Source: Fusibacter sp. 3D3 | Lineage (GTDB): Bacteria > Bacillota > Clostridia > Peptostreptococcales > Acidaminobacteraceae | Direction of reading: 5' to 3' | DNA: 64,000 nt | NCBI RefSeq assembly: GCF_001748365.1 | Contig: NZ_BDHH01000001.1 | Span: forward strand, 367,843 to 431,842 | Part shown: positions 7,890 to 37,468 of the stretch, in pieces | Layout: every line of letters begins with the position of its first letter | Numbering within the stretch: the stretch's first letter is position 1 | Notes under the pieces: generated by a model | What the model saw: only the letters and a program-made list of their open reading frames with translations | The model's database searches: none | Told to the model about the DNA's origin: nothing | Made by a program: the position numbers and the translations under genes

Positions 7890-8156
7890 GCTTCCTCCAT
7901 TTACAACATTATTATGTAATTTTTAATTTTTAATGAACAAACAAAATAATTGATAAACTATCGTTTAAAAGTCATCAAATTGTGATATATTAAAGAAGAT
8001 ATTCTTCTATTACTCTGGGGAAATTTAGGTTGACATCAAAAAGAGTGGTTCTAAGAAAATTCACACAAAGAGTTGATACGCGTTAGAATAAATAGAATTG
8101 TTGCTACAGATAATACTAACATACTTTTGTAGACAAATCAAATGAAGGTGGTTCCA

Positions 8157-9968
8157 ATGATTAAAAAGATACTTATATGTCTACTCATTATAAATTTAGC
8201 CATTCCCACACTCGCTTTTGCAAATACGCCCATTATGGACGGCACACCGCTTGTGGCTAAAGTTTATTTAGATGATTTTGAAATCACATTTACCAATCCT
8301 CCCCTCTACCTTCAAAATAAGATCATGGTCCCTGCACGTGCTGTTTTTGAAAAATTAGGGGTCCAAATTTATTGGATTGATAAAACCCAAGAGCTTTTAG
8401 CTTACAGAGATAATGTCTTTGTGAAAATTCAAATCGACAATCCTGTTGCCCATGTAAACGGCAAAGCAACGTCTATGGGGATTACACCTCTCGTTCGATC
8501 TGGAGAAATCTTTATTCCAGCATCTTTTATTGCAAATGCATTCGATCTCAATTATACTTTGGACTCGAAAATGCACAGTATAAATTTAGATTTCAGAGAA
8601 AATTTGTATGAGTACGAACAATTTAACGATCAACATTATAAAAAAATAAATACCCTCAACTGGGGCATCAGTTTTTTCATTCCTGAATACTGGGAAAAGC
8701 TTGATGGCACCTATGCTTCCTATGGTTATTCAAGCGATTACGAATATTATAAATTTGAACCTAGAGTTATACCACTTGATAGTGATTTCAATAGAGTTAT
8801 TTTGTCAAACGCCTTAATAAACAACTTGAAATATGAATATGGTCTTCAAATTTCAAATGTAAAAAACACAGAACGCCTCTATAATGATTTTCTATGTCGA
8901 GTGACCACTTATGACTTTAAAGACGATCAAGTGCTGAAGAAAAGATTTATCTACGTTTTTTTTGAAAATAATAACGGTTACATTTTCGAAGGTGAGGTCA
9001 ATACTACCGTCGATTCAAGTGATGCAAGAAATGTATTTGATACCATTGCAAATACATTTCAAATTAGTAAACTGACTGTAGACGACAACAGTGAACACTA
9101 TATTGAACTCGCTAAGTTTTTCGAAATGGAGATGCACCTTGATATGCAGCTTTACTCTAATATGACCGTTGAAAATCAATTTTTATTCAGTGGTACATTT
9201 CCAGAAGATACCGCTTTAAAAGGGCTACACATAATCGTCTCTAAAGGCTCTGAAACAACTGAATACTATGCACCTCTTATTTCGGGAGCGTTTAAAGCAA
9301 ATATTTTTACGCCTTTTGGCCTTGGCAAGCACAATATCACTGTCATGGTTGATGACGCAGGTAGCAAACCCCCTTTAAGCGAACGCATTAGCCTCGGACC
9401 CACACTTGACGATATTGTCAACAATGCCATTTCGCTTGAAATGCCTATTGACTCTAAGAAAATAGTTATGAAATTCAGCATACTCAACACTTCCGATGAT
9501 GCTATAAAATTCTTGTTGCCATCTGATTATATTGATTATGATGCTCATAGTGTTTACCAAACCGCCAATGGATTGACGTATAACCTCACAAATGACTATG
9601 CAAAATCAAAAATGATCTACGAATGGATTGTGGACAACTACACTTATGAGCCTATCTTGGAAAGCACCACGCTCTCTAGCACCACCAGTATGATTTCAAA
9701 AACAAGTGGTACCGAAGTCGACCTCAGCATTTTATACGCGGGTCTTATGCGCTCCATGAATGTGCCTTCACGAATCGTGAGAGGTACCAACGAACAAGTT
9801 TCCCACTACTGGGTCGAAAACTTCATTAACGGTAAATGGCAACTTTCCGACATTGCTTGGGAAATAAAATATAAAGACGACCAATCACAAAAGAAACTTC
9901 AATATTTTAATATCAATATGATGGGACATTACTCACAGTACAAGAAGACAGAATTTTTACCGTTCTGA
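8157..9968 (+). CDS. Secreted stalk-domain protein with degenerate transglutaminase-like domain
   Basis: The protein has a Sec signal peptide (MIKKILICLLIINLAIPTLAFA). Next comes a copper amine oxidase N-terminal-like stalk domain (about 30-150, with VPARAVFEKLGV and FIPASFIANAF), a central region of unknown fold, and a C-terminal transglutaminase-like domain (about 465-590). The last keeps the His (SHYWVENF) and Asp (WQLSDIAWE) positions. However, the expected G-x-C-x-D-Y-A motif reads SGTEVDLSILYAGLM, with no cysteine, so it is probably catalytically dead or a binding module. An ATG at 8142 is in frame, but GAAGGTGG at 8144-8151 favours 8157. It is monocistronic and on the opposite strand to rho. 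Confidence 0.8.
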   Translation: MIKKILICLLIINLAIPTLAFANTPIMDGTPLVAKVYLDDFEITFTNPPLYLQNKIMVPARAVFEKLGVQIYWIDKTQELLAYRDNVFVKIQIDNPVAHVNGKATSMGITPLVRSGEIFIPASFIANAFDLNYTLDSKMHSINLDFRENLYEYEQFNDQHYKKINTLNWGISFFIPEYWEKLDGTYASYGYSSDYEYYKFEPRVIPLDSDFNRVILSNALINNLKYEYGLQISNVKNTERLYNDFLCRVTTYDFKDDQVLKKRFIYVFFENNNGYIFEGEVNTTVDSSDARNVFDTIANTFQISKLTVDDNSEHYIELAKFFEMEMHLDMQLYSNMTVENQFLFSGTFPEDTALKGLHIIVSKGSETTEYYAPLISGAFKANIFTPFGLGKHNITVMVDDAGSKPPLSERISLGPTLDDIVNNAISLEMPIDSKKIVMKFSILNTSDDAIKFLLPSDYIDYDAHSVYQTANGLTYNLTNDYAKSKMIYEWIVDNYTYEPILESTTLSSTTSMISKTSGTEVDLSILYAGLMRSMNVPSRIVRGTNEQVSHYWVENFINGKWQLSDIAWEIKYKDDQSQKKLQYFNINMMGHYSQYKKTEFLPF

Positions 9969-9987: not shown

Positions 9988-10068
9988 AAAGCCCCCCATA
10001 CAATCCTCTCTGGGAAGAGTCCTCGGCTGCGCCTGCGGATTCCCGCCTAGGATTGTATGGGGGGCTTT
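9988..10068. repeat. Long hairpin 1 with conserved core (inverted orientation)
   Basis: Perfect 20-base arms (9988-10007 and 10049-10068) enclose a 41-base loop. The loop carries, on the minus strand, TCCGCAGGC-GCA-GCCGAGGACTCTT. The first arm is AAAGCCCCCCATACAATCCT. The right arm ends in CTTT, so it could act as a terminator for the plus-strand gene ending at 9968. The core inside the loop is shared with two neighbouring hairpins whose arms are unrelated. Confidence 0.8.
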
Positions 10069-10098
10069 GTCATAGGATAGTTTCAAAACCACAAAAGC

Positions 10099-10158
10099 AG
10101 CACACCTACATCCGCAGGCTTTAGCCGAGGACTCTTGCTCGTAGGATGTAGGTGTGCT
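10099..10158. repeat. Long hairpin 2 with conserved core
   Basis: Perfect 15-base arms (AGCACACCTACATCC at 10099-10113, complement at 10144-10158) enclose the plus-strand core TCCGCAGGC-TTTA-GCCGAGGACTCTT, followed by GCTCGTA. The arms share little with the other two hairpins beyond a GGATG-like inner edge. There is no T-tract. Confidence 0.8.
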
Positions 10159-10183
10159 ACCTTATTACTGTTCAAACCACACA

Positions 10184-10262
10184 GGTTGCACGTTGACATT
10201 CGAAGGGCAATCCGCAGGCCAACGGCCGAGGACTCTTGCCCGTAGAATGCCAACGTGCAACC
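10184..10262. repeat. Long hairpin 3 with conserved core
   Basis: Arms of 18 bases with one mismatch (GGTTGCACGTTGACATTC at 10184-10201, partner 10245-10262) enclose the plus-strand core. Here the core has a further inner stem, GGGCAA/TTGCCC, around TCCGCAGGCC-AAC-GGCCGAGGACTC. The hairpin ends 4 bases before the kce stop codon, so it forms the 3' end of that minus-strand transcript or terminates it. Confidence 0.8.
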
Positions 10263-10265
10263 GCT

Positions 10266-11078
10266 CTATTTTAGTCCCAAAATCGCTCTAGCCTCATCAG
10301 GTGTCGCCACTTCTCTGCCAATCTCTTTAGCGAGTCTGACGATTCTTTCCACAAGCTCAGCATTGGACTTTGCAAGTCTGCCTTTTGAGTAGTAAACATT
10401 GTCTTCGAAACCAACGCGCACATGGCCTCCCATGACAATTGCCATAACAGCCAGTGGTGTTTCAGCGCGTCCAATACCAGCTACCGTCCATGTCCAATCT
10501 TCTGGAATTTGGTTTACCATGAACATAAGATCCTCTGGGGTTCCTGGGCAAGCCCCTGGTACGCCAAGTACGAAATCCACATGAAGTGGCGCTTTTATAA
10601 GACCTTTTTTCACAAGACTCTTAGCATTCTCAATCATGCCTCTTTCAAACACTTCTATTTCAGGCTTAACACCCATTTCTTGCATTTTTGTTGCAAAACG
10701 TACTATATATTCTTCTGAGTTCATAAACACATCTGGTCCAAAGTTGCAAGTCCCACAACTCAACGTTGCCATTTCTGGTTTTAGATCTACAGGTTGTAAT
10801 CTTTGTTCTGGCGTATGCCATACAGCACCACCTGTTGAGGGTTGAAAAATAATCGGACATTTTGCTTCTACTTTCTCTTTAATCTCTTTGTAGACTTCAA
10901 AATCTTGAGTCGGATTCCCCTCTGCATCTCTTGCGTGTACATGAACAACAGAAGCGCCGGCTTGGTAACACTCATATGCCGCTTCTGCGATTTCATCTGG
11001 TGTTAAAGGTAAGCTTGGTTGTTGCGCTCTTGTGACTTCTGCACCTGTTAAAGCTGCCGTTATAATCAATTTTTCCAT
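10266..11078 (-). CDS. kce: 3-keto-5-aminohexanoate cleavage enzyme (BKACE/DUF849)
   Basis: In lysine fermentation this metal-dependent enzyme converts 3-keto-5-aminohexanoate plus acetyl-CoA to 3-aminobutyryl-CoA and acetoacetate. The 270-residue protein starts MEKLIITAALTGAEVTR and carries the metal-binding VVHVHARD motif (His pair near 46/48) and GGHVRVGFEDN near the C-terminus, which supplies the conserved acidic ligand. The family includes other beta-keto acid cleavage enzymes, but the adjacent upstream gene looks like 3-aminobutyryl-CoA ammonia lyase, the next enzyme of the pathway. That makes the assignment strong. GGTGATGAT precedes the start. Confidence 0.92.
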   Translation of the reverse strand: MEKLIITAALTGAEVTRAQQPSLPLTPDEIAEAAYECYQAGASVVHVHARDAEGNPTQDFEVYKEIKEKVEAKCPIIFQPSTGGAVWHTPEQRLQPVDLKPEMATLSCGTCNFGPDVFMNSEEYIVRFATKMQEMGVKPEIEVFERGMIENAKSLVKKGLIKAPLHVDFVLGVPGACPGTPEDLMFMVNQIPEDWTWTVAGIGRAETPLAVMAIVMGGHVRVGFEDNVYYSKGRLAKSNAELVERIVRLAKEIGREVATPDEARAILGLK

Positions 11079-37202: not shown

Positions 37203-37468
37203 GCCGTGCATCCAACTTCGAAATACTACTACGGACGTTACCACAACAGTTAGCTCAAACCAGGAACCCCTGCGGCACATAAACTTTCTCACTTACCGCT
37301 GCTTCCTTCCAGATCTGACGGAGTTCATAAGTGTCTATTGCGCAGGACCCAATTATCAACACCACTTTTCATGGGCAGACTCAACAATGGTATCCCTTAG
37401 ATGGACTTCAATCTTGCTACAGCGGATTGCAAGTTACAAGGCACCGCTACCTCCCCATCTAGCACGGC
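37203..37468 (-). ncRNA. ffs: Signal recognition particle RNA, large Bacillus type
   Basis: Read on the minus strand the RNA begins GCCGTGCTAGATGGGGAGG and ends in the complementary GCACGGC, closing the long terminal stem. The Alu-domain motif GGGGAGGTAGCGGTGCC is present, and the domain IV loop reads CTGGAAGGAAGCAGCGG, the Ffh-binding hairpin. The length of about 266 bases is that of the large, Alu-containing bacterial form. Its 5' end is only 11 bases after the CCA end of tRNA-Ser, so it is probably processed from a shared transcript, or its promoter lies inside the tRNA gene. Confidence 0.93.

Follow-up and report, generated by a model that had tools for sequence, protein, structure and literature searches.

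Three hairpins between two convergent genes

The window analysed here is a 64,000-nucleotide stretch of DNA from Fusibacter sp. 3D3, and in it two convergent genes are separated by three hairpins (hp1 to hp3) that carry a common core. Labels beginning with G, C and L denote the genomes, contigs and loci of this study, and G000 is the genome of the window. The features, in window coordinates, are as follows.

8142..9968, + strand: left convergent gene, with a copper-amine-oxidase-N-like and a transglutaminase-like domain (Pfam PF07833, PF01841)
9988..10068, - strand: hp1, from inverted-repeat arms, folding, orientation and a model match at 9996-10062 (E 3.2e-15)
10020..10039, - strand: hp1 core, TCCGCAGGC-GCA-GCCGAGGA, from the exact-core scan (G000:C1:377862-377881)
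10099..10158, + strand: hp2, a degenerate copy whose inner stem lacks its 5' half, from 15-nt exact arms and a model match at 10100-10155 (E 1.1e-7)
10111..10131, + strand: hp2 core, from the exact-core scan (G000:C1:377953-377973)
10124..10161 and 10225-10262, + strand: 38-nt direct repeat joining hp2 to hp3 (79% identity)
10184..10262, + strand: hp3, from inverted-repeat arms and a model match at 10188-10256 (E 4.1e-17)
10211..10232, + strand: hp3 core, from the exact-core scan (G000:C1:378053-378074)
10266..11078, - strand: right convergent gene, a beta-keto acid cleavage enzyme (BKACE; Pfam PF05853, E 1.6e-114)

The core, TCCGCAGGC-N-GCCGAGGA, is exact in all three hairpins, on the - strand in hp1 and on the + strand in hp2 and hp3. 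The arms measure 29 nt in hp1 (86% complementary), 27 nt in hp3 (89%) and 15 nt in hp2 (exact). Each hairpin was folded on both strands, with z-scores from -5.3 to -8.3, and in none of the six folds was any of 200 shuffles as good. A sequence-only reading of the window had proposed three hairpins sharing one core, opposite in orientation in hp1, with inner stems GGGAA/TTCCC in hp1 and GGGCAA/TTGCCC in hp3, and all of this is borne out. The same reading called the arms unrelated. The copies indeed do not all share arms, but hp2 and hp3 are 79% identical across 38 nt, from the core through the 3' arm, in copies 101 nt apart, and are therefore diverged tandem copies. The inner stem of hp2 lacks its 5' half, as if, we infer from the sequence, about 12 nt had been deleted between two copies of ATCC.

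Both outer hairpins face against the gene that they follow. The sense strand of the hp1 head is the - strand, antisense to the + gene 8142-9968, and its model match lies 27 nt behind that gene. The hp3 head is antisense to the - gene 10266-11078, which we take to be probably kce of lysine fermentation, and its model match ends 9 nt from the stop.

Family size and distribution

G000, at 5.1 Mb, has 25 exact cores, compared with 0 occurrences of the reversed pattern. Of 61 genomes searched, 8 contain the core; the G018 match (L031) seems to be a chance one, and the G045 match (L032/L086) is doubtful. A first covariance model (R1), built from 13 copies, has 45 matches in G000 at E<=0.05, the weakest of which, near E 0.004, is hp2 itself. 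In a scan of the window, hp1, hp2 and hp3 are the sole model matches at E<=5. With a second model (R2), built from 107 rows aligned by model, some of them repeats and a few of them poor, we found 45 matches in G000, 33 in G002 and 2 in G001, three congeners, at E<=1e-4. By this model 9 of 41 genomes of the family are carriers and 32 of 41 have no match; carriers make up 14 of 393 genomes in the order (a set that overlaps the family set) and 6 of 391 in the class. Two members of the class set, G602 and G721, have a variant in which CU/AG replaces UCC/GGA. In G689 a hairpin follows a tRNA.

A pattern scan of 84,980 genomes returned 13 stretches, six in Fusibacter ferrireducens, one in isolate OKU2 and six elsewhere. 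We infer that G002 is F. ferrireducens Q10-2 and that G028 is isolate OKU2. The six stretches elsewhere we take as chance: the model is blank in five, and its match in L129 is partial, covering just 27 positions. The sequence-only reading had held that a mobile or family interpretation would fail if the core occurred nowhere else or if all copies had their arms in common. Neither outcome occurred: exact-core and covariance-model searches find the core again both in the genome and in relatives, and not every copy has the same arms.

At the gathering threshold, Rfam 15 has no match at the window hairpins or in 13 loci. At E<=5 five sub-threshold microRNA families appear, the best being mir-578 with 38.5 of 98 bits, and we regard these as artefacts of hairpin shape. 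The Rfam scan also places a bacterial large SRP RNA at 37204-37467 of the window (- strand), with two tRNA genes near it. The viral contigs searched gave no matches, 17 plasmid matches were rejected as weak and partial (they cover no more than 43% of the query, and the best has E 0.7), and our literature searches found no report of such repeats in Fusibacter.

Structure of the head and the folded strand

From the outside in, a hairpin consists of the arms, a 3x3 internal loop, a covarying inner stem of 5-7 bp, a C(U)UC bulge, UCC/GGA, a GCA/GA loop, a distal stem that also covaries (GGC/GCC, AGC/GCU, GC/GC and others) and a loop; copies in G010 and G063 have a longer distal part. The UCC/GGA and GGC/GCC pairing had been recognised from the window, but the head is richer than this, having also the 3x3 GNA/GNA loop, the bulge and the GCA/GA loop. 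The consensus places GNA/GNA between arms and inner stem. Among 73 folded hairpins, 36 have a 3x3 loop at that place, of the form GNA/GNA in 24 of the 36 and TNC/TNC in none, while 8 of the 73 have no two-sided internal loop whatsoever.

Covariation was measured in two sets. Among 13 sequences picked solely for having the exact core, 96.8% of cells were paired and 16 of 24 pairs had double changes; none of 500 shuffles reached as high a value, and slid partners gave 27-44%. In a larger, model-fitted alignment of 78 distinct rows, 94.8% of cells were paired and 23 of 24 pairs had double changes, and here too the signal collapsed once partners were slid. In model-fitted alignment all 12 outer arm pairs are variable and the head columns are near-invariant. 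A conserved centre with variable self-complementary flanks, as the first reading put it, is the right description. To our knowledge, bacterial palindromic repeats keep their stems and vary in their loops, and the Fusibacter family reverses this usual pattern. A near-constant tip on site-specific legs suggests that the tip may be the part recognised by something.

The hairpins resemble intrinsic terminators in lying just behind the stop, about half of them with a T-rich exit, but their stems are longer, their structured head is conserved and many have no T-tract. That they are simply unrelated terminators with a chance resemblance is an explanation to which we give practically no credence: it agrees with the terminator-like position, but is refuted by the 25 exact cores against 0 reversed and by the covariation controls.

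The two strands of the hairpins are not equivalent. In 34 hairpins found without using the arms, repeated array units included, the head strand has 74 G.A against 10 T.C, and in the same set 29 G.T against 13 A.C (p 0.02). The G.T excess becomes weak if each repeated array unit counts only once, and it is absent in the outer arm extensions beyond the model (44 vs 54); the 64 G.T vs 20 A.C obtained elsewhere derives from the model-fitted alignment. Because of these G.A/T.C and G.T/A.C asymmetries, the head strand is likely the folded strand, whether as RNA or as single-stranded DNA, and RNA seems the more likely of the two.

Position and orientation relative to genes

We examined the genes flanking 56 hairpins: 28 lie in convergent gaps, 23 in tandem gaps and none in divergent gaps, and 5 have one flank uncalled. 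A wider set of 71 hairpins includes one divergent case (L118:9409). Of 40 hairpins placed unambiguously no more than 60 nt from a gene end, 34 have their head strand antisense to that gene and 6 have it sense (p 8e-6), in a count of non-independent copies that uses our own ORF calls and omits hp2, one partial copy and certain rows that overlap or are doubtful. Beyond 60 nt, 16 are sense and 4 are antisense; a further 6 have no called gene 3' end. A T-rich exit on the gene strand (at least 5 T in 8) follows 18 of the 34 gene-antisense hairpins.

Persistence across species and genera

Some sites are occupied in more than one genome. A hairpin stands behind groEL in G000, G019 and G031 and behind ychF in G000, G002 and G063, always antisense; the ychF comparison leaves out L203 and L204 and takes L205 by its coordinates. 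We assign these gene names provisionally, by sequence. There are hairpins at metK in G000 and G002; the copy in G010 is another one, in sense orientation, 111 nt behind metK and after a plain terminator. Many relatives have plain terminators at equivalent genes. So does G001 at kce, metK and engB, where the intergenic DNA is too diverged for alignment in the empty-site comparison. Because decayed half copies exist, single copies are dispensable.

Orthologous hairpins of G000 and G002 were compared base pair by base pair in seven of ten intended pairs, the core pattern having missed three. Across the seven, 164 base pairs are unchanged and 17 are compensated, that is, changed on both sides with pairing kept; 10 have one-sided changes compatible with G.U, 15 have one-sided breaks, and 1 falls elsewhere. 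At clpC there are 6 one-sided breaks and no compensated pair. The counterparts of hp1 and hp3 in G002 have 4 and 6 compensated pairs, and their arm differences are mostly matched changes. In a kce comparison made without loci L135-L137, the hp3 counterpart in G002 lies 10 kb from kce, and a near-identical copy adjoins kce.

At G002:C45:233391-243730, 10 kb of DNA lie between two nearly identical hairpins that point the same way, and the genes so separated are adjacent in G000. Integron attC sites act as a folded strand and carry conserved R boxes at the hairpin base. Such a pair, the position behind stop codons and the antisense folded strand would suit an attC-like site used by a site-specific recombinase. 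The bases of the Fusibacter hairpins, however, have no letters in common, whereas attC ends are conserved, and the flanking genes are housekeeping genes; we consider this explanation very improbable.

Another explanation is a selfish element like REP sequences or MITEs, its head recognised by a transposase on folded single-stranded DNA and its site behind genes reflecting tolerance. PMC3733652 links REP/REPIN sequences to RAYT transposases, in GTAG and CGTC superfamilies, and describes short extragenic multi-copy palindromes, mostly downstream of genes, in tandem and convergent gaps and often in opposite-facing pairs, all of which the Fusibacter hairpins resemble. Measured against that description, they differ in having a conserved head and variable arms, stems that reach 20-30 bp, about 45 copies rather than hundreds, and no link to a RAYT that we could find. 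A GTAG or CGTC end tag is absent: the 5' loop triplet reads GTA in 8 of 73 aligned copies, GAA in 15 of 73 and GAG, GCA or GGA in others, and it lies inside a longer stem. REP arms are common to copies, whereas here every one of the 12 outer pairs is variable. The dispersed, intergenic hairpin and double-hairpin elements of mitochondria, thought to be mobile, are also similar, although the sponge elements (PMC2800124) keep their stems and vary in their loops, opposite to the Fusibacter family.

A selfish element would agree with the patchy spread (45, 33 and 2 copies in three congeners, none in 32 of 41 family genomes), the dispersed G010 copies with a common bounded module, the tandem arrays and the decayed halves, and target preference could produce the orientation bias. 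Nevertheless, no element-specific enzyme was found, and the heads at groEL and ychF were kept across genera while the arms diverged, so we hold this explanation to be possible but doubtful. An IS200-like Y1 transposase is unsupported as the partner: 18 of 22 genomes have a Y1 domain, carriers and non-carriers alike, none was found in carriers G071 and G378, and the 12 Y1 loci scanned contain no hairpins. By eye, no mobile gene was common to the clusters in L117 and L118.

Changes in arms and heads

Several loci record how arms and heads change. L104 has CTTC where L075, L076 and L106 have AGAA, which makes this L104 arm exactly the reverse complement of the opposite arm, itself unchanged; L011 and L012 show a similar arm change. 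L075 and L076 have a common left flank and opposite heads. At engB the arms are homologous between G000 and G002 and the head is inverted, which disfavours a strict need for one orientation. The kdd-kamA gap of G002 contains a perfect stem, of which the upstream gene's stop codon is a part, with half of an older hairpin beside it, and G000 retains the decayed half of another hairpin.

Template switching homogenises arms by copying them as reverse complements and inverts spacers (PMC8604942, PMC8794818), and arm copying of the L104 type together with head inversion is what it would produce. It is a mutational mechanism rather than a family, and we invoke it for the arms only. The family offers natural single-site cases of arm homogenisation and head inversion and would be a test of the idea that hairpin arms are written by template switching.

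Dispersed copies of G010, on different contigs, have 19-25 nt to the left of the core, 19-24 nt in L166-L169, and 22-28 nt to its right in common and then differ, while their stems continue. This pattern fits a moving inner module with new outer arms, which may have been copied from the flank or may be pre-existing terminators. The sequence-only reading had suggested a mini-element aimed at terminator loops. On such an account the module would insert into the loop of an intrinsic terminator that was already there, and the terminator stem would become the outer arms. In its favour, the inner module is sharply bounded, the outer arms of L170-L173 resemble terminator stems beyond it, and the ychF hairpin is followed by T7. 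But only about half of the exits are T-rich, several outer arms in G010 are AT-rich, have no T-tract outside and are not terminator-like, no empty site was seen, and the plain terminators of relatives have other stems. We judge it improbable.

Alternatively, a mobile head might write its own arms, the module settling behind genes and the flank being copied as reverse complement across the head by template switching, which we think rather unlikely. Each copy would so gain a unique near-perfect stem, and the head alone would be the signal for a host or element protein.

A candidate gene-end mark

The explanation that we prefer, and consider moderately probable, is that the hairpins form a REP-like extragenic family of Fusibacter and some other Clostridia, in which the conserved head is a candidate docking site and the whole hairpin would mark the gene end. 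The head would be kept by selection on the folded single strand, and a candidate factor would dock on it. The hairpin as a whole may mark the transcript end, protect 3' ends or act as a barrier to transcription from the opposite side. Matched changes would maintain the pairing of its arms, helped at some sites by replication template switching in which one arm is copied onto the other, an event that could also flip the head. New sites would probably arise through local tandem duplication and spread of the inner module. An RNA family read by a protein had been one of the original suggestions; the covarying, structured head fits it, but no partner was found. It counts against the preferred explanation that the head strand, if it is RNA, would in most close cases be antisense to the gene, which makes the source of transcription problematic at tandem sites such as groEL. 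Further points against it are the weak G.T excess, the head inversion at engB, the uncompensated breaks at clpC and the 15 breaks over the seven pairs, the divergent case L118:9409, the decayed half copies and the plain terminators of many relatives. The family could supply, in its defined head, a bait with which to capture a gene-end factor of Clostridia.

Arrays and clusters

Tandem arrays of hairpins occur at G000:C5:1-1400 (L010/L051) and at the starts of contigs C11 and C22, with units of 221-223 bp. The unit of L010/L051-type arrays is one hairpin and a copy of the 5S rRNA tail with its terminator, behind a 5S rRNA gene, and C5, C11 and C22 hold 5, 3+2 and 5 copies. We take a 475-aa ORF between two hairpin arrays (L116:1384-2811) to resemble an IS110-type transposase. 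Adjoining a hairpin array at L010:1556-2686 is a DDE transposase ORF (PF13808, PF01609). G001, the congener with few hairpins, has a head array at L156:1106-1550 with a 116 bp unit in 3.8 copies. Finally, L118 (G028) and L198 (G063) represent a homologous ABC-permease/response-regulator region with several hairpins each, and the hairpins behind its permease gene belong to different subfamilies.
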